This document shows, piece after piece, positions 24,371 through 39,689 of a stretch of 64,000 bases of DNA. A program made the position numbers and the translations under genes. The notes beneath the pieces are model-generated. The model searched no databases. It had not been told where the DNA came from and saw only the letters and a list, made by a program, of their open reading frames with translations. Each line of letters opens with the position of its first letter. Positions within the stretch are counted from its first letter, which is position 1. Source of the DNA: Halioglobus sp. (GTDB lineage Bacteria; Pseudomonadota; Gammaproteobacteria; Pseudomonadales; Halieaceae); NCBI GenBank assembly GCA_020443425.1, contig JAGRIE010000004.1, positions 124,001-188,000 of the forward strand, read 5' to 3'.

Positions 24371-25354
24371 ATGAAGCAAAAAACCATATTGGTCACCGGC
24401 GGCGCTGGCTATATCGGCAGCCATACCTGCAAGGCGCTCGCCACAGCGGGCTACCTCCCAGTGGCCTATGACAACCTTGCCCACGGCAGTGAGCGCGCGG
24501 TGCAGTGGGGCCCGCTGGTGCGCGGCGAGCTATCGGATGGCGATCGCCTGGCCTCAGTGATGGCCGACTACCGACCGGCCGCCGTGATGCACTTCGCCGC
24601 CTACGCTTATGTCGGCGAGTCCGTGACTGACCCCGGGAAATATTATCGCAATAATGTGATGGGCTCGCTGACGTTGCTTGAGGCCATGCGTGAACAGGCC
24701 ATTGGTCAACTGGTGTTTTCAAGCACCTGCGCCACCTATGGGAATCCGCTGCACCAGGCGCTCAACGAATCGCACCCACAATCCCCGATCAACCCCTACG
24801 GGCAGTCCAAGCTGATGGTTGAAACCATGCTGGGGGATTTCGGTCGCGCCCATGGCCTGCGCTCCATAGCGCTGCGCTATTTCAACGCAGCGGGAGCAGA
24901 CATGGACGGCACTATTGGCGAGGACCATGAACCGGAAACGCACCTCATCCCCCTGGCACTGGAAGCCGCCACAGACACAGGACACCCCCTCACGGTGTTT
25001 GGCGCCGACTACAGCACACCTGATGGCACCTGCATTCGCGATTACATCCATGTACAGGATCTCGCGGATGCCCATGTCACAGCACTGCAGGCACTGGAAG
25101 CGGGAGCGAGCAGCACTGCCTACAACCTCGGCACGGGCAAAGGGGTTTCTGTCAGGGAAGTCATCGACACCATCGAACAGGTCACCGGGAAGCCTGTACC
25201 GCATATATTCGGCCAGCGCCGTGCAGGCGACCCCGACCGGCTGGTGGCAGATGCCGCGAAGTTCCAGCGCGCGTTCGGGTGGCGTCCCGTCCACTCTGAT
25301 TTGCCAACGATTATCCGCAGCGCGTGGCGTTGGCGGAATCGCGGGGCGGGATGA
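24371..25354 (+). CDS. galE: UDP-glucose 4-epimerase
   Basis: This 327-residue SDR enzyme has the NAD-binding GGAGYIGSH (residues 10-18), HFAAYAYVGESV, SSTCATYG (Ser118/Thr119) and NPYGQSK with catalytic Tyr143 and Lys147. RYFNAAGADMDGTIGEDH and LGTGKGVSVREVI are diagnostic of GalE. It interconverts UDP-glucose and UDP-galactose, and in some bacteria the N-acetyl forms, to supply a donor sugar for the transferases of this operon. It is linked to the following gene by an ATGA overlap. Confidence 0.95.
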   Translation: MKQKTILVTGGAGYIGSHTCKALATAGYLPVAYDNLAHGSERAVQWGPLVRGELSDGDRLASVMADYRPAAVMHFAAYAYVGESVTDPGKYYRNNVMGSLTLLEAMREQAIGQLVFSSTCATYGNPLHQALNESHPQSPINPYGQSKLMVETMLGDFGRAHGLRSIALRYFNAAGADMDGTIGEDHEPETHLIPLALEAATDTGHPLTVFGADYSTPDGTCIRDYIHVQDLADAHVTALQALEAGASSTAYNLGTGKGVSVREVIDTIEQVTGKPVPHIFGQRRAGDPDRLVADAAKFQRAFGWRPVHSDLPTIIRSAWRWRNRGAG

Positions 25355-26493
25355 CGCATCCAGCAATGGAATCGCTCTCGCCATACGACTGGATACTGCG
25401 CTTTGTTCGCGGGGATCAGCCGCCCTGGCAATCCGACAGCGCATTCCTGCCTCGCCTGCTGCAGTGTGCCCAGACACAACGGGCACATGTACTGCTGATG
25501 TCCCAGCTGTTAGCACAGGGGGAAAAGGTGGGCCTGCCTGGGGCAGTCACGCGGCAGCTGACCGCTCGCCTGCATCAGGAATTCGCGCTGGAAATGCTGC
25601 GCCAGGAGGAGGTGAAGCGCGTAGTCGCCGCGCTGGAAAACGCGCAGTTGCCCTTCCTGCTGTTCAAAGGCACGCCACTGGCCTACACCCTGTACCACGA
25701 TGCCTGCCTGCGCGACCGCAGTGACACCGATCTGCTATTCGACAGCCGCGAAGCTGCGGAATCCGCATGGCAGGTACTGCAGGGTCTTGGATACGAGCGC
25801 ATGAACACCGCCGGCGGCGCGCTGGTGAGCTTCCAGTTTCCGTGCGTTCTGCGCAATGGCCGGGTGACGGAGATGCTCGATGTCCACTGGGAGACCAGTA
25901 ACGCCGCACAGTTGCGACCGCTGGCCTTCCCGGAACTGTGGGCGGGCGCGATCAACGTTCCCGCACTGGGGCCTGCTGCAAACAGTCCCTGCCACGAACA
26001 CGCGCTGCTGCTGGCCTGCCTGCACCGGCTGGCGCATGTGAAAGACGGTGAGGAGAACAAGCTGATCTGGCTGTACGACATCGTCCTGTTGCTGCAGTCG
26101 CTGGACGCGGAGGCCTGGCAGCGGTTCCTGGCCTGTGCGCGGGAAAAGGGCGTGGCCGGCGCCTGCTTCGATGGCGTGGAACGCGCACTGGACACGTTCG
26201 GCGCAGGTCAGGCCGGTGCTCCTCGCCTGGCAGACTTGCGCAGGCTGGCATCACTGCCGGGGCAACAGGTGGATATCCACGCAACACTGCTGCAGCGGGA
26301 CATCGCGCAACTGAAGGCCACAGCAGGCATGCAACGTTTGCAGTTGCTGCGCGAATACCTGTTTCCTCCGGTCGCCTATATGCAGGCCAGGTACCAGCCG
26401 CGCTGGAGTTGGTTGCTGCCGTGTTACTACGCGCGGCGCATCGCGCGAGGCATCGGGCGGCGCCTGCGCGCTCACCGGGGCGGGGCCCGCTGA
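25351..26493 (+). CDS. Nucleotidyltransferase-fold protein (NTP_transf_5 family)
   Basis: This 380-residue protein has the core FLLFKGTPLAYTLYHDACLR followed by DRSDTDLLFD (Asp125, Asp127), the metal-binding acidic pair of the uncharacterised nucleotidyltransferase family PF14907, and MLDVHWETSN with the third acidic residue. The rest is helical. The substrate of this family is unknown; members are frequently found in exopolysaccharide loci and near HprK-like and PqqD-like genes, as in the cassette at 36773-39689. The ATG at 25351 overlaps the galE stop; a GTG 27 nt upstream is also in frame. Its product could modify the glycan machinery or a peptide. Confidence 0.8.
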   Translation: MTHPAMESLSPYDWILRFVRGDQPPWQSDSAFLPRLLQCAQTQRAHVLLMSQLLAQGEKVGLPGAVTRQLTARLHQEFALEMLRQEEVKRVVAALENAQLPFLLFKGTPLAYTLYHDACLRDRSDTDLLFDSREAAESAWQVLQGLGYERMNTAGGALVSFQFPCVLRNGRVTEMLDVHWETSNAAQLRPLAFPELWAGAINVPALGPAANSPCHEHALLLACLHRLAHVKDGEENKLIWLYDIVLLLQSLDAEAWQRFLACAREKGVAGACFDGVERALDTFGAGQAGAPRLADLRRLASLPGQQVDIHATLLQRDIAQLKATAGMQRLQLLREYLFPPVAYMQARYQPRWSWLLPCYYARRIARGIGRRLRAHRGGAR

Positions 26494-30890: not shown

Positions 30891-30908
30891 GCCCCGGGTT
30901 ACCGGGGC
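30891..30908. terminator. Hairpin between convergent genes, possible weak terminator
   Basis: GCCCCGG and CCGGGGC flank GTTA, a 7-bp GC-rich stem with a tetraloop, placed 18 nt after the stop of the last polysaccharide gene and overlapping the stop codon of the convergent gene. There is no T-run on either side, so it is at best an attenuating hairpin that might need Rho. Confidence 0.35.
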
Positions 30909-33900
30909 AGGCTCAGGCTCCAGGGCCCGTAAGTGTTCTGAGTGCCACGCGCCTCCTGCTCAATCAGCCGGTACTCATAGCTCTCGCCGCGCTGCGGCAT
31001 CGGGTCGGCCAGCCAGTACTCGCCGCCCATCGGCGCAATAATCAGGCCCGGTAACATATCGCCACTCAGGCGCTGCCAGGTATCCTCGCCACTGCGGCGC
31101 CTTTCCACATAGAAACCGATGGTGCCGCGCTCCTCCAGTGTTTCCCAGCGCAGGGTCGCCACCTCCGAGTCCCCATCTGGATCCAGGTATGCCCTCAGTG
31201 CGCCGAGGATCACTTGCGCATCTGCGCCTGCCAGCACCTGTGCCTGTTGCGGGTCATAGAATCGCAACAGCGCCAGCGCACTCTGGGCACCAGAGTCCTG
31301 CGTCGCCATGTCCGCCAGGAACGTGGAGACCGATATTACAGAGAGCGAGACCTTGCCAATTGTCGCCACGGTGGGGTTGTAGACTATCGAGTAGTCCTCC
31401 ATTTCACCGTCACTTGCAGTACCGGTGGGCGACTCACACTGTGCGGCTGTCGTGCACAGCCGGAAGCGGGAGACGTAGGTCTGGGTGGTCGTCGCGTTAA
31501 CTGTCCACTCAAACGGCACCGAGGAGGTGCCACTTGACGCCACATTCACGCAGCGCCGCTCCGACAGATCAAACAGGCCGTTAGGTGGGCTGCCTATATC
31601 CATCCAGCCGCACAGGCGGGCCGTGGAACCGGTAGAGTTGGTCACCGCCACAGTGGCGATGATATTGGAACCACCACCGCTGGGCGCAGTAAACGTAACC
31701 CCGTCTTCGTCCGAACCGGCAGCGGGATTGCTGGTGACGCGGAGATTGTCCGCATCCGCACCGCCACTGGCTGTACCCAGCCATTCAAAATCCACAAGAC
31801 CGCCGATCCGCAGATTCACCGAGGCACCCGCTGCCGCATCGACGGTGTGCCGCGTCGTACTGGTGGAGTAACTGCCGGGCGCATCGCCAAAATCACAGGC
31901 GACGGCCGTGGGGACACTGCTCAGTGCGGCCACCAGCCCGCGATGGCCGGCGAGCGCGCCGTGGTTGGTAACAGCCGCAGACCCTGAAGTATTGCGTCTC
32001 CAGCCCGGCAAACCGCCCGCCACATTGGTACTTGCACCCGTTGCGTTGATATAGACAGCACCACCGCCACCACCGCCACCCGGACCATGGTTGTCAGGGT
32101 ACTCAGAATCGCCGCCGTTGCCGCCGATGGCTTGCAGGCTCAGCCCCGGCACGGAACTGGAAGCCGTACGAACGAGAATCGTACCGCCAGCACCGCCACC
32201 ACCCGCGCCATCCTGAACAGAAAAATCGCCGGCAGTGCCGTTTGCGCGGATAGAGCCGCCGACCCCCGATGTCAGTGTGGTGGCGTTGATAAATACCACA
32301 CCGCCGCCGTTGCCGCCGAGGCCCGTACCGCCCGCATTGTTTTTGTGCCCAGCACCACCGCCGCCGCCAGCCAGCAGACGGCCGGAATAACCGGCGAAAG
32401 TACCACCGCCCTTACCGCCGACGGTTCCGGTGGGATAGGGAAATCCGCCGCGCCCACCCGAGCCGATATTACTGCCGCCACCGCCGCCGGCGTTGTGGTT
32501 GTTGCCGCCACCCCCACCGTTCCCGGGTGCACCCCGGGCCTGGCTGCCGCCGGGATAGCCGTCCGTATTGAGCATAGGGCCTACATTTGGCCCGCCGGCA
32601 ATCCCTTCGCCCTTGGCACCCCAGAACTCGCCGGTGGCAACGTAAGCTGTGCTGACATCACCCGAACCGGAAGCCGTTGTACCGGCGTAGTCGCCACCGC
32701 GAAACCCCTGTCCACTGACGTCGATACTGAACCCATTGAGGTTGAGGGTGCCCTGCACATTCAGGGCGACAATGCCCCCGGCGAGGCCGTTCCAGCTGGC
32801 AGCCGTAATATTGGCGCCCAGGGTAACGCTGCTGTACTGAGGCACCCGCACGACCTGGAAACGCCGGTTGGTGCCGCGGTTATAGCTGTGCGCCAGCGGG
32901 GAGGCCAGGGTCACTGTACCCCCTCCGGTCGCCACACTGTTGGTGGCGGTGACAAATTCGTACAGCCCGGTCTGGCGGATAGCCGTGGAACCGGAGCCAT
33001 CGGCCGTGCCGGCAGCACTGCCGTCACCGTAGTTGGCGTTGTTGGAGCTGTCCAGGGTGGCGTCCTGCATCTGCATCACCAGCAACAGGTCACCGGCGGC
33101 AATGGCACTGCCCGCACCGATTGAGCTGCCCAAAGTGATACTGGTCGCTCCCGCGGCAACCGAGGTCGAGCCCGGGTAGTAGCGGTTCACCGTACCGCTG
33201 ATAGTACCGCTGCCACCGGCGCCCGCGGCACTGCAGATCGCCGGCGCGCTGTTGGTGTCACCGGTGGGCAGCGGGTTGACACCCGGCGGAGGCAGCACAA
33301 TGGTCAGCGCACGCCACTGCTCACTGCCAGTTTGCGAGAAACTGGCGGAGCCGGTGCTCCCGGTTCCGGCCTGGGCGCTGTCAGCGACCCCCAGGCTGGT
33401 TGTGCCACCACCACCGCCACTCTCTATGTTCAGCCGGCCGGTGGTGCCGGGCGGATAGGGCGACCCGGACAGGTCATCGTCATCAGCGCCATACACACGC
33501 ACCACCCTGGTGTCGGCACTCAGCGCAGCGGTGGCCGGCGAGGTGGGGCTGGTACTGGTGCCGGTCCCCGCGGCGAATGCCTCCACCGGTTCACTCGTGC
33601 TGACACCGGAGTAACGCAGGATGGCCCCGGCAGCCTCTTCACCACCGCTCCAGGTGAAGACATGGCTGGATGCCTCTGCGGCAGTGGCAATACGGTAAAA
33701 CACGGCGAGTGTGGAGTTGCTTCCCGGGGATTGCCCCTGATCCAGCAGTGTCCAGTCGGCTGGGGTATTAAACGTAATACTGCCGTCGGTGGAGATGGTC
33801 GCAAGTAACAGGTCGCCGGAAGCAGTGCCTGCCGGGGTGGCAATTGTCAGGGACGTGACATTGGCGCTCTCAGCTGCAGTGCTCGAGGTGTGGAATTGCG

Positions 33901-33991
33901 GCGCGGCCACCACCAGCGGCGACAGCAGAAGCAGGATACCGGCCAATAAACACACAGACGCGGACAGCGGCGGCCGAAATTTTTCAGTCAT
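30899..33991 (-). CDS. Secreted glycine-rich protein with GEVED-like domain
   Basis: This 1030-residue protein has a signal peptide (residues 1-30, LLAGILLLLSPLVVAAPQF) and an N-terminal beta-sandwich-like region. Residues about 420-690 are glycine-rich low complexity with long Gly runs. A GEVED-like domain follows, from DFGDAPGSYSTSTTRHTVDA to DGEMEDYSIVYN. The end carries a fibronectin-like segment (ATLRWETLEERGTIGFYVER). GEVED domains occur in secreted adhesins and surface proteins. No PEP-CTERM or other sorting tail is seen. The ATG at 33991 is preferred over an in-frame TTG at 34006. The gene is divergent from the C25 protease, which suggests that they may function together. Confidence 0.75.
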   Translation of the reverse strand: MTEKFRPPLSASVCLLAGILLLLSPLVVAAPQFHTSSTAAESANVTSLTIATPAGTASGDLLLATISTDGSITFNTPADWTLLDQGQSPGSNSTLAVFYRIATAAEASSHVFTWSGGEEAAGAILRYSGVSTSEPVEAFAAGTGTSTSPTSPATAALSADTRVVRVYGADDDDLSGSPYPPGTTGRLNIESGGGGGTTSLGVADSAQAGTGSTGSASFSQTGSEQWRALTIVLPPPGVNPLPTGDTNSAPAICSAAGAGGSGTISGTVNRYYPGSTSVAAGATSITLGSSIGAGSAIAAGDLLLVMQMQDATLDSSNNANYGDGSAAGTADGSGSTAIRQTGLYEFVTATNSVATGGGTVTLASPLAHSYNRGTNRRFQVVRVPQYSSVTLGANITAASWNGLAGGIVALNVQGTLNLNGFSIDVSGQGFRGGDYAGTTASGSGDVSTAYVATGEFWGAKGEGIAGGPNVGPMLNTDGYPGGSQARGAPGNGGGGGNNHNAGGGGGSNIGSGGRGGFPYPTGTVGGKGGGTFAGYSGRLLAGGGGGAGHKNNAGGTGLGGNGGGVVFINATTLTSGVGGSIRANGTAGDFSVQDGAGGGGAGGTILVRTASSSVPGLSLQAIGGNGGDSEYPDNHGPGGGGGGGAVYINATGASTNVAGGLPGWRRNTSGSAAVTNHGALAGHRGLVAALSSVPTAVACDFGDAPGSYSTSTTRHTVDAAAGASVNLRIGGLVDFEWLGTASGGADADNLRVTSNPAAGSDEDGVTFTAPSGGGSNIIATVAVTNSTGSTARLCGWMDIGSPPNGLFDLSERRCVNVASSGTSSVPFEWTVNATTTQTYVSRFRLCTTAAQCESPTGTASDGEMEDYSIVYNPTVATIGKVSLSVISVSTFLADMATQDSGAQSALALLRFYDPQQAQVLAGADAQVILGALRAYLDPDGDSEVATLRWETLEERGTIGFYVERRRSGEDTWQRLSGDMLPGLIIAPMGGEYWLADPMPQRGESYEYRLIEQEARGTQNTYGPWSLSLPR

Positions 33992-34356
33992 CTTCAGGGT
34001 TCTCAAATATCAATTCATTGCCCAGCTGGCCGGGTTGCTTGTACTTCTACTTCACACGCAGTCCATGCCCAGGCTCTCGATATTGGCGCCCATACCATCC
34101 GGGCACGGAGTATATTTTAATGTCGACCACCTTGGCCATGCATCGCCGGCCCGCGCGCGAACGATTCACAATTTTTTTGCACGATCGTGAAAGGCATCAC
34201 TCAAAGGCGGCACGTTACCCGCTTTATTACCGCAAAAGCGCAACTTCCGTGCTGTTAGTCCTCCTGTGACTCAACTAAAATACGGCCAAAGCGGGCCTTC
34301 CTTGACCTCAACTGAGGTGTGATCACGGGGGCTGCGGGGACAAGACGGGAATATAC
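33992..34356. other. Divergent intergenic region between glycine-rich protein and C25 protease
   Basis: These 365 nt are AT-richer than the flanking genes and must hold promoters for both directions. I see TATATT near 34111, a TTGACC near 34302 with no matching -10, and a T7 run near 34173. No convincing complete promoter, coding region or terminator was found. GGGA before 34357 serves the protease start. Confidence 0.5.
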
Positions 34357-36726
34357 ATGTTTCATACACAACAAACCGTGGGCAAATTCATCATGGTTCC
34401 GGGCCTCGCCCTGCTCACCTGCCTGTACATGGCATCGCCCGCTCACGCCAAGAAAGACAAGCCAGCACCCGAGGCGTGGAGTGACTGGTCCTCGCTCGGG
34501 GCCGGGTTTCTGGCACGCCGCCGCGAACCTGAAAAAATGGACAGGCCGGTCTCGGAGCGCCGACTCGCCACCACACAGGCCAGGGCCATCAGTAAAAAAT
34601 CCCGGTCGGCCAAGGGAAAGAAATGGCGGCAGTGGCGCCAGTGGAGAGGCAATGCCGCCTCCAGCGCGGACCAGCTCTGGCTTTACACAACGGAAGAGGG
34701 GCTGCACAGCGTCACGATAGCGGAGCTGGCATTGCACAGCGGCGCCAGTGAAGCGCGGTTGCGCAAGAAAGCAACTAAGGGGCAATTGTCCCTCACCAAT
34801 GCCGGCAGTGCCGTCAGCTGGTATTTTGACCCGGCCACCGATGTGATCCGGTTCCCGGCGACAGTCTATGAGACGTTTTATACCGATACCAACGCCTATC
34901 ATTTCACCATGGACCACAGTGCCGCGGCACCGATGCCGAGCAGCCGACTCAGACGCGGAAAACCTGTCCGGACAGGCGCAGACACGGCGTTCATCGATAC
35001 CCTGCATTTTGAGGAAGAACCGGATTTCTCCTTTTCCACCGGTCCGGTGGCTGCGGAACCCGATGCCGATTACTGGTTCTGGGATTACCTGTACGGCGGC
35101 TACAAGGACCAGATATCGGTGCCGCTGAGCATCCCGTATCCCGCCGCACAAGGCACCGCCCGCATCAGCATTACGCTGCGCGGCTGGACCAATCTCGAAT
35201 ACGGTGACGAGCATGAGGTGTACGCCAGGCTGAATGGCACGGACATCGGCTCATCCATCGTATGGGATGGCTTTGACAGCGCCGAGCTGGTGGCGGAGTT
35301 TGACCAGGGCCTGCTGGACCCCTCTGGCGACAACACCTTGACACTGCACAATTCCTACGCCGCCGGCACACACCCCGGCCAGTTTCTCGATGCCGTCGAC
35401 ATCCGTTACTCGCGCATGCCGGTGAGCGACGATGACACGCTCTGGCTACACAATGTCAAAGCGGGCACGCAGAGAGTGGGTGGCTTCAGCAGTGAGAACA
35501 TTACAGTGATAGAAGCGCCGGCAGGCAGATCAGTGCTGCGCCGCGACATCCTGGTAGAACCCGATGGACTGGGCGGCTGGTCCGCTTCCTTCGAGACCCG
35601 CGCCGGTGTTGACTATCTGGTGGTGGGCGATGAGGGCGACTATCTCGCCAGCGTCGCCGCGGATACCCCGTCCTCTCTGGCGAAAAAATCCAACTCGGCA
35701 GATTACCTGGTCATCGCACCCCGAGAGTTCAGCGGGACCGCGAATGCGCTGGCCAGTTATCGCGAGGCGCGCTTTGGCCGCGTCAGTATCGCCTGGCTGG
35801 ACGATATCTACGATGAGTTCAGTGATGGACGAGAGGACCCGGCCGCGATCACCTCGTTTATGACCAGGGTCCAGAAGCAGTGGCGAACCCCGCCGTCTGT
35901 GGTCACCCTGCTTGGCAAAGGGTCGCTGGACATGAAGGATCGCATGGGCTACGGAGACAACTTCATCCCCATCGCAATGGTCAGCACCCCTTGGGCCATA
36001 GCGGTTTCAGACGACCGCCTGCTGGATAATGACACCCGACAGGGCTTTGCAGTCGGCCGCCTGCCCATTACCAGTGATGAGGAGGGGCTCGCCTACCTGC
36101 AGAAACTGATGTCGTATGAGTCCGGCAACATTGACGCCGAGCGCTACCACGCATTGTTGGTCGCAGACAACGCAGACAGCGGCGGTAACTTCGCCGCCAA
36201 TTCGGAGCAGATGGCAGAACACCTGTTCGCGACCGCCGGCTTTGACCAGATTTCCACCCTGTACCATCCCCTGGACAAGGTACGCAACAGCCTTATCCAG
36301 TCCGCCACCTGGCAGACGGGCTATGTCAGTTACGATGGGCACGGCTCCTCCGGACAGGTGGGTGATGGCACGGAGAATTTTATTAAGGCATCCGATGCCG
36401 CTTTGCTGCAGAATACAACCTACCCGGTATTTGCTGCCCTCACCTGTGCAGCGGGCGATGATTCCATGCCCGGCGCCCGTTCGCTGGCGGCGGCCCTGGT
36501 GCTGAATCCCACAGGGGGAGCGATTGCATCACTGGCGCCGACCGGCCTGTCGCTGGACCAGGACGCACAACAGCTGGCGTACGCGTTTGTCGACAGTGCC
36601 TTCGCCGGGATGAATACCGTCGGTGATGCCGTCCGCGATGCCAAGGTACAGACCACGGGCGCTATCGGCGAGTTTATGCCTCGGATCTATTCCGTGGTGG
36701 GCGAGCCTGCGGTATTCGCACGCTAG
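34357..36726 (+). CDS. C25-family (gingipain-like) cysteine peptidase
   Basis: This 789-residue exported protein has a signal peptide (to about residue 31, ASPAHA) and a basic linker rich in Arg/Lys. Its first half has beta-rich domains (DQLWLYTTEEGLHSVTIAEL). The C25 caspase-like fold begins near residue 440, with YDGHGSSG (catalytic His662) and FAALTCAAGD (catalytic Cys697). Gingipains are the best-known members; this protein lacks a type IX sorting domain and has no such system nearby. It may be surface or periplasmic. Genes downstream form a peptide-modification cassette, so it is a candidate for processing the peptide or the divergently encoded glycine-rich protein. Confidence 0.85.
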   Translation: MFHTQQTVGKFIMVPGLALLTCLYMASPAHAKKDKPAPEAWSDWSSLGAGFLARRREPEKMDRPVSERRLATTQARAISKKSRSAKGKKWRQWRQWRGNAASSADQLWLYTTEEGLHSVTIAELALHSGASEARLRKKATKGQLSLTNAGSAVSWYFDPATDVIRFPATVYETFYTDTNAYHFTMDHSAAAPMPSSRLRRGKPVRTGADTAFIDTLHFEEEPDFSFSTGPVAAEPDADYWFWDYLYGGYKDQISVPLSIPYPAAQGTARISITLRGWTNLEYGDEHEVYARLNGTDIGSSIVWDGFDSAELVAEFDQGLLDPSGDNTLTLHNSYAAGTHPGQFLDAVDIRYSRMPVSDDDTLWLHNVKAGTQRVGGFSSENITVIEAPAGRSVLRRDILVEPDGLGGWSASFETRAGVDYLVVGDEGDYLASVAADTPSSLAKKSNSADYLVIAPREFSGTANALASYREARFGRVSIAWLDDIYDEFSDGREDPAAITSFMTRVQKQWRTPPSVVTLLGKGSLDMKDRMGYGDNFIPIAMVSTPWAIAVSDDRLLDNDTRQGFAVGRLPITSDEEGLAYLQKLMSYESGNIDAERYHALLVADNADSGGNFAANSEQMAEHLFATAGFDQISTLYHPLDKVRNSLIQSATWQTGYVSYDGHGSSGQVGDGTENFIKASDAALLQNTTYPVFAALTCAAGDDSMPGARSLAAALVLNPTGGAIASLAPTGLSLDQDAQQLAYAFVDSAFAGMNTVGDAVRDAKVQTTGAIGEFMPRIYSVVGEPAVFAR

Positions 36727-36772: not shown

Positions 36773-36973
36773 ATGGCTGGCAGCGATAGCCCGGAACGGG
36801 GAAAGCACGAGCAAGCGGATACGGCGGGAACCGCGCAAACTGCGCGCCGCACGTATTCAGCCCCCCGCGTACTCGGCTCCGAATCGCTGGAGGCGGCGGC
36901 CGCAACCTGCTCCCCCCCCGCACCGCCTTTTGGCAAGAGCGTTCCCTTTCCCTGCAGTTCGCTGGGGTCCTGA
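36773..36973 (+). CDS. Candidate RiPP precursor peptide with YxxPxV leader motif
   Basis: This 66-residue open frame starts at ATG 36773 with AAGGTGG 7 nt upstream, the best ribosome-binding site in this region. Its N-terminal half is hydrophilic. It continues TYSAPRVLGSESLEAAAATC and then a Pro-rich core with a second Cys and the C-terminal sequence CSSLGS. Tyr28-Ser-Ala-Pro31-Arg-Val33 fits the YxxPx(L/V) motif that PqqD-like recognition domains bind in lasso-peptide leaders. Cys46 and Cys61 are the only Cys; Ser66 is the last residue. The neighbours, an HprK-like kinase, a PqqD-like protein, a radical SAM/SPASM enzyme and an S26-like peptidase, fit a modified-peptide pathway. I am not aware of a described family. 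Confidence 0.7.
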   Translation: MAGSDSPERGKHEQADTAGTAQTARRTYSAPRVLGSESLEAAAATCSPPAPPFGKSVPFPCSSLGS

Positions 36974-37027
36974 GCCGCCACTGTGCCGCCTGCTTGTGGC
37001 GACAGCTGGGGTAGCCACTCCGTATCG

Positions 37028-37900
37028 ATGACCCTGCCGACAGGCGCAATCCGTTTCACCGGTCTAAGCCCCCGGCAAGCCCGCTCACTGATGACGACCT
37101 ACGCCCGCTTCATCAGCGCGGATATTCCTGCTGTGGCCGCTGCTGGTGTGACGTGTGCTGCGCACCGGCTGGCAGCGGCGCCGACTATTGATCCACAGAC
37201 CATGACGGTGGAAGGGCTTTATACGCCACTGAAGTTGCGCCAGGTCGACGGCTTTGAGATCACCGGGATTAATTTCACAGCAAAGATTCCACTCACCCCC
37301 GACCGTGGACAGGCCTCGCTCGCGGTTGCGCGGGAAGAGGAGCTTGTGCTGGCGAATGTGATCGAGAATTTCCTGCGGATACTGTCGGCCCACCAGGCAC
37401 TGGTGCACGGCGGACTGGTGCTACATAGCGCCGGCCTGGTGCTCGACCGGCAGGCCTGGATATTTGCCGGCCGCTCCGGCGCTGGCAAAACCACGTTGAC
37501 CGGCAAGGCGCACCGCGCGGGTGCCACCGTACTCAGTGATGATGTTAATCTGCTGTTGCCAGACAAGGGCGCCTACCACGCATATGCGGTACCATTCACC
37601 GGGGAGTTCGGGCGCACCCTTGATCATGCCGGCGCCGATGACGCCTATCCGGTGGCCGGCGTCGTATTGCTGGAACAGGGAGAGCAGTTGGCTGCCCACA
37701 GGGTGACATCAGCCGTGGCCACGGCCCGACTGATGGCCCACAGCCCCTTCGTCAACACCGACGAGGCCGCAACTGAACGGCTGCTGGAAAACCTGGAGCG
37801 CGCGGTGACGCACCTGCCGGTGATCCGACTGCAAAACCGTCGCGAAGACGGCATAGAGGATATTATGAAAATTGTGAAACGCGCAATTGCAAATGGCTGA
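37028..37900 (+). CDS. HprK-like (HPr kinase-related) P-loop kinase
   Basis: This protein of about 290 residues resembles the C-terminal kinase domain of HPr kinase. VHGGLVLHSAGLVLD (His133) leads into the P-loop FAGRSGAGKTTL (148-157) and VLSDDVNLL (Asp171, Asp172) follows, as in HprK-like proteins from RiPP clusters. In paeninodin-type lasso pathways such kinases phosphorylate the C-terminal Ser of the precursor, so Ser66 of the peptide is an attractive substrate. The ATG at 37028 is preferred; a GTG at 36983 would add 15 residues and start 10 nt after the peptide stop. The end overlaps the PqqD-like gene by 8 nt. Confidence 0.8.
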   Translation: MTLPTGAIRFTGLSPRQARSLMTTYARFISADIPAVAAAGVTCAAHRLAAAPTIDPQTMTVEGLYTPLKLRQVDGFEITGINFTAKIPLTPDRGQASLAVAREEELVLANVIENFLRILSAHQALVHGGLVLHSAGLVLDRQAWIFAGRSGAGKTTLTGKAHRAGATVLSDDVNLLLPDKGAYHAYAVPFTGEFGRTLDHAGADDAYPVAGVVLLEQGEQLAAHRVTSAVATARLMAHSPFVNTDEAATERLLENLERAVTHLPVIRLQNRREDGIEDIMKIVKRAIANG

Positions 37901-38180
37901 CCAGGCCACCCCCGACCTGCTCGCCCTGACCCCCAGGCTGCGCTATCGCGCGGTAGGGGACGAAGGCGTGGTAGTACACCTCGACAGGGGCCGGGTGACC
38001 GTGGTCAACGAACTGGGCCTGCATATCATCCGGCTGCTGCAACAGCCCATGTCCCGAGAATCCCTCGTGACCGCGATCGTGACCGAGTTTGAGGTCGGCG
38101 CGGCGGAAGCGGAGGCAGACCTGGCCCGCTTCCTGGACGAGTTGGCGGCCGAACAACTGCTAGCACCCCCGGCAAGCTGA
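37893..38180 (+). CDS. PqqD-like peptide recognition protein (RRE)
   Basis: This 95-residue protein has the PqqD winged-helix pattern (DEGVVVHLDRGRVTVVNELG, HIIRLLQQPMSRESLVTAIV, DLARFLDELAAEQLL). PqqD-like proteins are RiPP recognition elements that bind the precursor leader and present it to a radical SAM enzyme. There are no PQQ genes here, so a PQQ role is unlikely. The start at 37893 overlaps the kinase stop by 8 nt, and the gene ends 1 nt before the radical SAM gene, so all three should be made together. Confidence 0.85.
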   Translation: MADQATPDLLALTPRLRYRAVGDEGVVVHLDRGRVTVVNELGLHIIRLLQQPMSRESLVTAIVTEFEVGAAEAEADLARFLDELAAEQLLAPPAS

Positions 38181-38181
38181 C

Positions 38182-39237
38182 ATGTACCAGCAAGTGATAC
38201 TTCCCAAGGTCCGGCAACAGCGCATGCTGCACGATGTGTCGCTGGAACTGACCTACGACTGCAACCTGGACTGCTTCTACTGCTATAACGACAGGGACAA
38301 GCCCGGGCAGCGCCTGTCACTCACCCAGTACAGGGTGCTGCTGCAGGAGCTGGCCGACATGCAAACCCTGTACCTCATGTTGACCGGTGGCGAACCCATG
38401 CTGCATCCGCATTTTTTCGAGATCGGCAATCTGGCGCGGGAGCTGGGTTTTGTCACCCGGGTGCGCACCAATGGCCACAGCCTGGGCCAGCGCAATGTGG
38501 AGCGTCTGCTGCGGGAAGTCGATCCCTATGTTGTGGAGATCAGCTTGCACGGCGCGAGCGCAGAGACCCACGACCGTCAAACCCGGGTGCCCGGCAGCTT
38601 CGAACGCCTGGTTCGGAATATCGGGCACGCCACCACGGCAGGTCTGCGCTGCAATGCCGTCAGCACCCCCACTGCCTGGAACGAACACGAAATAGACGAT
38701 ATGTTCGCACTGTGTGATGTACTTTCAGTGCCCCTGCGCTTCCAGGGGCCGGTCGCACCCCGGGACAATGGCGACCTGGAACCGCTGGTCATTCAGCCCA
38801 CCAGGGCCGTGTGGGAACGGGTAGAGCGGGGTCTGGCTGCCCGACGGCCCGCATTTGCGCCGGCAGCGGCAGCGCCGCGCGACAGCGCAACAGGCAGTGA
38901 CAGTGAGCCAAAAGCCACCTGCAGCGTCGGCGTCGCCGGCGTCGACATAGATCCCTACGGCAATGTGCAGGCCTGTATGCATCTGCAGCGCAGCGCCGGC
39001 AGTTTACACCAGCATTCCATCGCCCAGATATGGAACAACTCGCCGCTGTTCCTGGAGGCGCGGGAGCGGGCGATAGAGGCCGCCGAACGCCTGCGGGGCC
39101 AGCCACTGGACCAACTCGGCGCCCCGCTGCACTGTATTGCCGTAGAGGAGAACTGCAACAAGGGCTGCGGTGGCAATGCCTCTCGCGCCGCCAGCAGCGG
39201 TGACGTCGAACTCATCCACGCAGTGACGCTCTCCTGA
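38182..39237 (+). CDS. Radical SAM/SPASM peptide-modifying enzyme
   Basis: This 351-residue protein has the CNLDCFYC motif (Cys27, Cys31, Cys34) for the SAM-binding 4Fe-4S cluster and LMLTGGEPMLHPHFFEIG. The C-terminal SPASM region has C-x12-G-x4-C ending at ACMHL and then CIAVEENCNKGC, five Cys in all. The usual C-x2-C-x5-C-x3-C block is altered to C-x6-C-x3-C, so auxiliary clusters may be ligated in a variant way. SPASM enzymes crosslink, epimerise or otherwise alter RiPP precursors. The immediately preceding PqqD-like gene and the peptide at 36773 are the natural partners. The start is the ATG right after the PqqD stop. Confidence 0.88.
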   Translation: MYQQVILPKVRQQRMLHDVSLELTYDCNLDCFYCYNDRDKPGQRLSLTQYRVLLQELADMQTLYLMLTGGEPMLHPHFFEIGNLARELGFVTRVRTNGHSLGQRNVERLLREVDPYVVEISLHGASAETHDRQTRVPGSFERLVRNIGHATTAGLRCNAVSTPTAWNEHEIDDMFALCDVLSVPLRFQGPVAPRDNGDLEPLVIQPTRAVWERVERGLAARRPAFAPAAAAPRDSATGSDSEPKATCSVGVAGVDIDPYGNVQACMHLQRSAGSLHQHSIAQIWNNSPLFLEARERAIEAAERLRGQPLDQLGAPLHCIAVEENCNKGCGGNASRAASSGDVELIHAVTLS

Positions 39238-39269
39238 GCGCGCTCCGTGCATGCAAGCCGGGGATTGAC

Positions 39270-39689
39270 ATGTACAACGCGATTGCCGCAATGCTGCAGA
39301 ACGGGGAGTCAGTGCCGGTGACCGTCACCGGGCGCTGCATGAGCCCGCTGCTGCGCGAGGGCCAGCGCCTGTCCGTACAGAAGCGGGGTCGCTATTTCAC
39401 CGGTGATATCCTTGTCTTCGCCGCAGCGGGGGGAGAGCTTCTGGTGCACCGCTATCTGGGGCCGGTCCCGACCGGGCGACTGATGACCAAGGCGGACACC
39501 GCAGCGAGGATTGATGCGCTGGTCTCCCGCGACCACATACTGGGCAGGGTGCTAAGCGCCGACGGGATTCCAGTGACAACGACCGTCAGTGCGCGGGCGC
39601 GGGCCGCGCTGCAGTACCTGCGCTGGCTTGCGGTATTGCTGGCCGCGCGCATTCAACGACACAGCGCGTTTCGGTTTCCGCTGGACTGA
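39270..39689 (+). CDS. S24/S26-type signal-peptidase-like protein with Cys at the nucleophile site
   Basis: This 139-residue protein aligns by eye with the S24/S26 fold: VTVTGRCMSPLLREGQ where family members have G-x-SM-x-P, DILVF, and LMTKADTAARID, where Lys74 is the expected general base. Thus Cys23 replaces the catalytic Ser. The C-terminal part has a hydrophobic stretch that may associate with the membrane. GGGG lies 8 nt before the ATG. A Cys protease, or a non-proteolytic carrier, is possible. Placed last in the cassette, it is a candidate to remove the leader from the modified peptide. Confidence 0.75.
   Translation: MYNAIAAMLQNGESVPVTVTGRCMSPLLREGQRLSVQKRGRYFTGDILVFAAAGGELLVHRYLGPVPTGRLMTKADTAARIDALVSRDHILGRVLSADGIPVTTTVSARARAALQYLRWLAVLLAARIQRHSAFRFPLD

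Follow-up and report, generated by a model that had tools for sequence, protein, structure and literature searches.

A candidate RiPP class combining a kinase and a radical SAM enzyme at loci of a PorU-like surface protease

Described relatives and the Halioglobus locus

Linear polyphosphorylated peptides (LPPs; Nat Commun 2026, PMC13381572) are, as far as the main text of that report goes, made with a discrete recognition element for ribosomally synthesized and post-translationally modified peptides (RiPPs), an HprK-like kinase and an archaeal-type signal peptidase, from precursors with a YxxPxV-type leader and at loci inside polysaccharide clusters; the peptidase removes the leader when the RiPP recognition element (RRE) is present. 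Paeninodin-type lasso peptides, in the part of their description drawn on here, likewise have a PqqD-like RRE, an HprK-like kinase and a C-terminal Ser on the precursor, and the SynChlorMet set (NCBIfam ScmC-ScmF) joins HprK-like and PqqD-like proteins to a radical SAM/SPASM enzyme. In P. gingivalis, the sortase PorU cleaves the C-terminal domain off cargo of the type IX secretion system (T9SS) and attaches anionic lipopolysaccharide (A-LPS), according to the sections consulted of two reports (PMC8545088, PMC4560394). Here we describe a locus with likenesses to each of these systems in a 64,000-nucleotide stretch of Halioglobus sp. DNA (assembly GCA_020443425.1, contig JAGRIE010000004.1, positions 124,001 to 188,000; hereafter the window). 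From sequence comparison, we read it as belonging to an undescribed RiPP class that would serve PorU-like surface-protein processing in Gammaproteobacteria and Acidobacteriota, and we hold it reasonably probable that the product of this maturation cassette works with a surface protease. Since the gene set, kept across distant bacteria, is usually paired with a C25 protease, the peptide probably serves this PorU-related enzyme rather than acting alone. The features at issue are as follows, in window coordinates.

36773-36973, plus strand: precursor peptide of 66 residues, an open reading frame (ORF) with homologues at the same genomic position in distant genomes
36983-37900, plus strand: HprK-like peptide kinase, GTG start, start uncertain
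37893-38180, plus strand: PqqD-like RRE from an ATG start (alternative TTG start at 37887), PF05402 2.7e-13
38182-39237, plus strand: radical SAM/SPASM peptide maturase, CNLDCFYC at 38260-38283
39270-39689, plus strand: S24/S26-type peptidase, probable leader peptidase, Cys23 in the nucleophile position, His60
34357-36726, plus strand: secreted C25 (PorU-like) cysteine peptidase, PF01364, His662 and Cys697 in the dyad positions, a conserved neighbour
30899-34006, minus strand: secreted Gly-rich/GEVED surface protein ending in a conserved C-terminal domain (CTD), divergent from the C25 gene, candidate C25 client
30905-31363, minus strand: the CTD itself, about 155 residues, C-terminal part of the preceding protein
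25324-26493, plus strand: PF14907 nucleotidyltransferase inside an exopolysaccharide-type locus, possible phosphate-tailoring enzyme, cassette membership tentative

A preliminary description of this DNA had seen five adjacent plus-strand genes, from peptide to peptidase, with the kinase and PqqD genes overlapping by 8 nt and the PqqD and radical SAM genes 1 nt apart. All five ORFs are present in this order and both spacings match, the overlap with the ATG start. The limits it gave to the unit were too short: the C25 gene, which ends 46 nt before the peptide starts, belongs to it, and the CTD protein gene probably does as well. Fetched loci are given L numbers below and genomes G numbers, G000 being the window's own genome. 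The order C25, peptide, kinase, PqqD, radical SAM recurs in the window, L012, L014, L015, L016 and L020, with the S26-like gene last in all of these except L014.

How does this locus compare with its relatives? The LPP trio of RRE, HprK-like kinase and archaeal-type signal peptidase I is present, the peptidase being a Cys variant that scores below curated cut-offs. The LPP core, however, includes a nucleoside triphosphate transferase and an MsbA-like transporter; its phosphate sits on Ser3 rather than on the terminal Ser proposed here; its leader, YxxPxVLxHQxIxFETxxS, differs from our consensus YxxPxxLSxExLExxAxxC; and LPPs occur mainly in Bacillota, our cassette in Gammaproteobacteria and Acidobacteriota. 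In the main text of the same report (PMC13381572) the term radical SAM is absent, and its account of LPPs, in the parts used here, has neither C25 nor CTD proteins, whereas the cassette has a radical SAM gene. A large exopolysaccharide-type locus adjoins the cassette at 2325-30873, with epimerases, glycosyltransferases, an O-antigen ligase and an acyltransferase from 21.9 kb on by Pfam, and with export and further glycosyltransferase genes judged by reading translations only. Its PF14907 nucleotidyltransferase lies about 10 kb from the peptide, and homologues were detected only in L071 (8618-9781) and L073 (16561-17706) among the fetched loci, both near type II cassettes (see below).

The radical SAM gene also sets the cassette apart from paeninodin-type loci, and the lasso cyclase and B2 protease, which the preliminary description had reported missing, were indeed not found among the 25 window proteins scanned with Pfam, the only proteins searched for them. 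ScmC is the kinase's best NCBIfam match, yet all SynChlorMet scores stay far below their cut-offs (kinase 32 versus 125, radical SAM 70 versus 400, PqqD 14 versus 100). For the HPr-rel-A system (TIGR04352, TIGR04353) the kinase reaches 29.6 of 200 bits and the PqqD protein narrowly misses the chaperone model, at 29.0 versus 35. To our knowledge, no C25 enzyme belongs to either of these systems. Mycofactocin (TIGR03962, 103 versus 265 bits) and PQQ maturation (TIGR02109, 63 versus 381) are equally distant, and the likeness to sactipeptides and ranthipeptides ends at the conserved Cys pair. The peptide and the kinase pass no NCBIfam, Pfam or PADLOC model that has a cut-off, and the PqqD, radical SAM and C25 proteins pass no listed NCBIfam model (for radical SAM, among the best 25 models). 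We also rejected anti-phage defence: the only match in the defence library was between the radical SAM protein and viperin models, and the NCBIfam viperin model likewise matches this protein below its cut-off. A search of the open-access literature gave no matching paper for this gene combination; prior mention is possible, as subscription papers and preprints were outside the search.

The precursor peptide and its predicted maturation

The 66-residue ORF is not a chance frame: homologues lie at the same place in distant genomes, a Shine-Dalgarno-like AAGGTGG stands upstream, and divergence from a Halioglobus copy, the one pair compared, is far lower at nonsynonymous (dN 0.13) than at synonymous sites (dS 0.55). 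It matches no family in NCBIfam and Pfam scans. Its landmarks are YSAPRV (36854-36871), Cys46 (36908-36910), Cys61 (36953-36955) and, closing an LGS terminus, Ser66 (36968-36970). The YxxPxV motif, the two Cys and the C-terminal Ser singled out by the preliminary description are thus real in the window, and they are kept across 23 homologous peptides: two Cys follow the YxxP motif in 22 of these (four in L016), the last residue is Ser in 21, Thr in one and Ala in one, and the Tyr-to-Cys spacing is 18 in all 23, a constancy partly selected for, since the script took as motif the YxxP that came nearest to this distance from a Cys. The first peptides were collected by their position beside C25 or kinase genes and later ones through profiles built from the earlier ones, a procedure that affects the terminal Ser less than the spacing. 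The consensus reads RRxYxxPxxLSxExLExxAxxC, then the second Cys and the terminal Ser, and P31, E40, A43, C46 and C61 are invariant across 23 aligned rows, an alignment that omits the L108 peptide (identical to that of L106) and includes one L117 peptide that fell below threshold and is outside the 23.

Searched genome-wide, the peptide profile matched 29 of 77 genomes: all 20 that had supplied its rows (or an identical copy) and nine of ten radical-SAM-positive genomes outside the profile (10 of 27 sampled), the exception being G711. No match was obtained in 36 relatives without a strong kinase match (36 of 93 sampled), in seven class genomes with C25 but no kinase match (7 of 12 sampled), or in G292, G330, G096 and G100. 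Twelve extra peptides, none of which had gone into the profile that recovered them (one comes from G609, source of a profile row as well), all have the spacing of 18, two Cys and a terminal Ser, so that the geometry is kept in 35 copies in all. For L112, L113, L116 and L118, pattern matching yielded nothing convincing, the one match (L113) looking like chance; the profile later placed peptides elsewhere in the genomes of three of these loci (G617, G484, G634) and none in G711 (L112).

The preliminary description had let its reading stand or fall with a conserved peptide beside these enzymes in relatives, and this is what we find; its proposal that kinase, radical SAM enzyme and peptidase act on one peptide thereby gains comparative support. 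At sequence level, the hallmark of a RiPP cluster is present here: a precursor is encoded with its conserved leader beside genes for modifying enzymes, and relatives retain this arrangement. That the short ORF is no substrate and that the enzymes act on something else seems very improbable to us: while no characterised member was found in the open-access literature, such a reading would have to account for the same geometry in 35 copies and for the purifying selection in the pair compared.

The enzymes themselves are distant members of their families. The kinase has no Pfam match above cut-off and its best NCBIfam matches are HprK-related and far below theirs (ScmC 7.4e-8, HprK_rel_A 3.5e-7). 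Its residues H148, G163, G166, G168, K169, D186 and D187 align with the BsfK motif, taken from the relevant part of PMC10368454, with Thr in place of Ser170; the L014 kinase departs from this motif at several positions. The radical SAM protein carries PF04055 (1.1e-18) and the SPASM domain PF13186 (2.1e-5), both above cut-off, as is the PqqD match of the RRE. The S24/S26-like protein remains just under the PF00717 cut-off (8.2e-5, 22.7 versus 23.3 bits) and well under that of the archaeal signal peptidase I model (1.2e-4, 22 versus 51.85 bits). Its Cys nucleophile, noted in the preliminary description, is genuine (GRCMSP) and kept in 16 of 17 aligned homologues, all of which conserve HR; Ser takes its place in the seventeenth (L117) and in the L122 peptidase, which is outside that alignment and is fused to a PqqD domain in one ORF (L122 10143-10859). 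In the window's own genome, a second PqqD-family gene (L001, G000 C200) stands beside a protein in which we read a haem-binding CxxCH motif.

The conserved motif YxxPx[V/L/I], Cys and terminal Ser are in keeping with a single peptide that is bound by an RRE, modified by a radical SAM enzyme and phosphorylated by an HprK-type kinase. In the pathway that we propose, the PqqD-like protein would bind the YxxPxV/E/LE leader, the HprK-like kinase would phosphorylate the C-terminal Ser, and the radical SAM/SPASM enzyme would modify the core. For the latter step, a cross-link using one or both conserved Cys is the natural guess and the most likely modification. Leader removal would then fall to the Cys-type S26 peptidase, with the cut probably behind the invariant Ala that precedes the first Cys by three residues (Ala43 in the window); since the residue two before that Ala is mostly small or aliphatic, a signal-peptidase-like cut is suggested at this point. 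Lasso kinases recognise a C-terminal Ser largely irrespective of the remaining sequence, as described in the part of PMC8498205 used here.

The C25 protease, CTD proteins and their co-occurrence

The reading of a RiPP cassette in the preliminary description holds up but was incomplete, as it left out the C25 gene, in most loci the nearest constant neighbour of the peptide and next to it on the same strand in 20 of 23 cases (exceptions: L064, with C25 on another contig, L070 and L110). The window's C25 protein matches PF01364 at 2.4e-52 and NF033707 (PorU) at 4.4e-45, the latter at 153.8 bits versus a cut-off of 420. PorU is the closest solved structure by sequence (6za2, 2.1e-12), followed by gingipain R (0.0073), and the GHG and TC of the catalytic dyad align to PorU; the AlphaFold model is poor (mean pLDDT, a per-residue confidence score, of 50). 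The CTD is about 50 % identical to the last part of C25-neighbouring proteins in L014, L015 and L020, which differ outside it (AgmC-like Gly-rich with GEVED, DUF11/DUF7933, LamG). The mature peptide, of about 23 residues in the window, would serve the secreted PorU-like enzyme, which would process large secreted proteins carrying the CTD. PorU is likewise described as acting on proteins with a conserved C-terminal domain (PMC8545088, PMC4560394), although our C25 protein stays below the PorU equivalog cut-off and the CTD is modelled (pLDDT 76) as a helical part plus an Fn3/Ig-like sandwich. A search for SprA matched none of 24 genomes, control genomes giving no match either.

Varied N termini and, in some genomes, several CTD proteins would suit a shared processing enzyme. 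The Solemya velum gill symbiont (L016, G099) has the cassette plus four CTD matches on another contig; three of its CTD proteins scanned with Pfam carry LamG domains. The window's own genome encodes a second CTD protein with GEVED (L077, G000 C147, 6719-8794), with no cassette gene detected in the surrounding 16 kb. One CTD gene and two C25 genes are split over two frames (L020 2103-5215, L071 3679-8108, L122 6088-8749), by sequencing error or decay.

Three arrangements of the cassette can be told apart. In type I (window, L012, L014, L015, L016, L020, L106-L108) a separate CTD protein precedes one operon, the CTD matches of the L016 genome being those on another contig. In type II (L069-L073, L083, L109, L111) CTD and C25 form one polypeptide, a fusion also seen in L172, usually with the peptide beside it and with the enzymes shuffled or on the other strand. 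In type III, found in some Acidobacteriota (e.g. L115, L117), a peptide of about 38 residues lies between radical SAM and C25 genes. In L071, L073, L074 and L111, peptide and C25 share one strand and the enzymes lie on the other. One Thermoanaerobaculaceae contig carries both a type I (L014) and a type II (L083) cassette. In L160, L161 and L163, the type III peptides are preceded not by C25 but by a similar series of secreted proteins, and the radical SAM gene of each contig lies over 10 kb away.

The genes also travel together. Relatives of the radical SAM protein lead to seven loci, from Halioglobus to Thermoanaerobaculaceae and the Solemya velum gill symbiont; L018 (38 % identical) was set aside, with no C25 and no convincing kinase found. 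Among 96 relatives, own genome included, the kinase search gave three strong matches (G000, G002, G049; E 1e-200 to 3.5e-63) and five weak ones, and the CTD occurs in exactly the three strong genomes. Across 369 genomes of the class (own included), CTD and kinase (E<=1e-10) are each found in seven, six of them in common (Fisher 1.5e-11), and C25 in 19, including all seven kinase genomes (Fisher 3e-10), counts that treat related genomes as independent; in these CTD and kinase searches, as in the Acidobacteriota and Verrucomicrobiota ones, at most 6-10 candidates were scored per genome, so that misses are possible. In G292, which has the CTD without the kinase, the CTD lies at a contig end with an S26-like ORF adjoining, and neither a radical SAM nor a peptide match turned up in this genome. 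In G330, which has the kinase without the CTD, the kinase match on contig C186 stands beside weak radical SAM and PqqD matches (L081), while another contig (L122, fetched for its C25) carries a divergent row of C25, radical SAM, S26/PqqD fusion and kinase. Three more genomes with weak CTD matches (E 5e-7 to 6e-4) lack a radical SAM match at E<=1e-40. A CTD match is present in seven of the eight cassette genomes searched, the exception (G096) having its cassette on a 4.9-kb contig.

Outside the class, the radical SAM profile matches 37 of 247 Acidobacteriota genomes at E<=1e-50, and 11 of 13 loci picked there by radical SAM contain C25. Overall, 26 loci were selected through a kinase or radical SAM match and 22 of them contain C25, or 25 of all 29 entries once L070, L072 and L122 (selected by CTD or C25) are included; the 29 include two pairs, L014 and L083 from one contig and L064 and L072 from one genome. 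Four of the 26 lack C25, namely L113 and three on short contigs (L013, L064, L112). Pairwise distances of radical SAM, kinase, PqqD and C25 proteins co-vary (r 0.71-0.91, n=21-25, 0/999 permutations each; radical SAM versus C25 r 0.91, n=22, 0/999), with L072 and L122 left out of this test. Only one of 240 Verrucomicrobiota genomes matches, that of L015, which may therefore be a misbinned contig. No radical SAM relative was found on viral contigs or plasmids (E limit 1e-40 for the latter).

Several points weigh against our reading of how the peptide matures and serves the C25 enzyme. C25-CTD-like pairs exist without a cassette in G354, G449 and G242, and 12 of the 19 C25 genomes lack a kinase match, so C25 needs no peptide in general. 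The co-varying distances speak for shared inheritance, not for a mechanism. C25 is adjacent to six of the 12 extra peptides and not to the other six, which are from Acidobacteriota genomes. The S26 peptidase was found in 17 of 29 entries; it was not found in L014, L074, L083, L109, L114-L116, L118 and the pieces cut short. The L014 peptide ends in Ala, and HprK-like RiPP kinases need not use a C-terminal Ser at all, since BsfK (PMC10368454) and LppK (PMC13381572) phosphorylate Ser3 according to the parts of these reports consulted. No transporter that would account for export is seen in the cassette, and we do not claim a sorting-domain fold of the T9SS type for the CTD because its model matches only generic Fn3/Ig folds. 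As for the C25 genes without a cassette, profile and pattern scans gave no convincing peptide beside them; the pattern, applied to nine of 16 C25 loci (L122 included), matched once in L122 and once in L110, neither time convincingly. In L119, L120, L121 and L132, a secreted protein that weakly matches the CTD is encoded immediately before such a C25 gene or forms one polypeptide with it.

Possible roles of the mature peptide

What, then, would a modified peptide do for a surface protease? RiPP clusters often include a protease, and together with the typical leader/core architecture this allows for an ordinary secreted RiPP (antimicrobial, signal or metallophore), with C25 as no more than its processing or export protease. 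We think this rather unlikely: the size of the C25 proteins (about 780-1700 residues), their likeness to PorU and the CTD fusion in one branch go beyond what removing a leader calls for, the 17 entries mentioned have an S26-type peptidase of their own, and even across long distances the core retains two Cys and a terminal Ser.

The pairing with C25 suggests that the peptide serves the C25 reaction, whether by anchoring, by regulation or as a subunit. L109 has two C25 genes, each with a separate peptide, and a single set of enzymes. One peptide per C25 gene, as in protease-inhibitor pairs, together with the close gene pairing and the conserved C25 dyad, would suit a dedicated regulator, an inhibitor or in-trans propeptide that silences the enzyme until secretion. 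Such a role by itself does not need a kinase and a radical SAM enzyme, leaves the co-occurrence with the CTD unexplained and sits badly with peptides beside no C25 gene in the stretch fetched; about one chance in four is what we would grant it. The paired genes of L109 and the co-varying distances could also mean that the C25 enzyme has the modified peptide as its subunit or cofactor, for which quinohemoprotein amine dehydrogenase, with its radical-SAM-crosslinked small subunit, offers a parallel. However, we know of no cofactor need in C25 enzymes, and C25 genes without the cassette exist, which makes a subunit a distinctly unlikely alternative.

Weakly favoured over a regulator, and still tentative, is the peptide as covalent partner or anchor in a sortase-like reaction. 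In a more specific and somewhat more doubtful form of this idea, the peptide, modified by the radical SAM enzyme, C-terminally phosphorylated and perhaps glycan-linked, would be a part of protein sorting outside Bacteroidota, joined to CTD proteins, or anchoring them, through a C25 transpeptidase. For the chemistry and for the peptide's role with C25 alike, we infer rather than observe.

If our reading is correct, the cassette would add a RiPP class in which kinase and radical SAM chemistry meet in one peptide, and with it would come an unusual leader peptidase of the Cys type, related to signal peptidases. It would further link RiPP chemistry to a PorU-like protease and to an unnamed C-terminal domain on surface proteins. 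Should the peptide take part in anchoring proteins, RiPPs would gain a role in cell-surface assembly, and sorting of the PorU type would reach beyond Bacteroidota.

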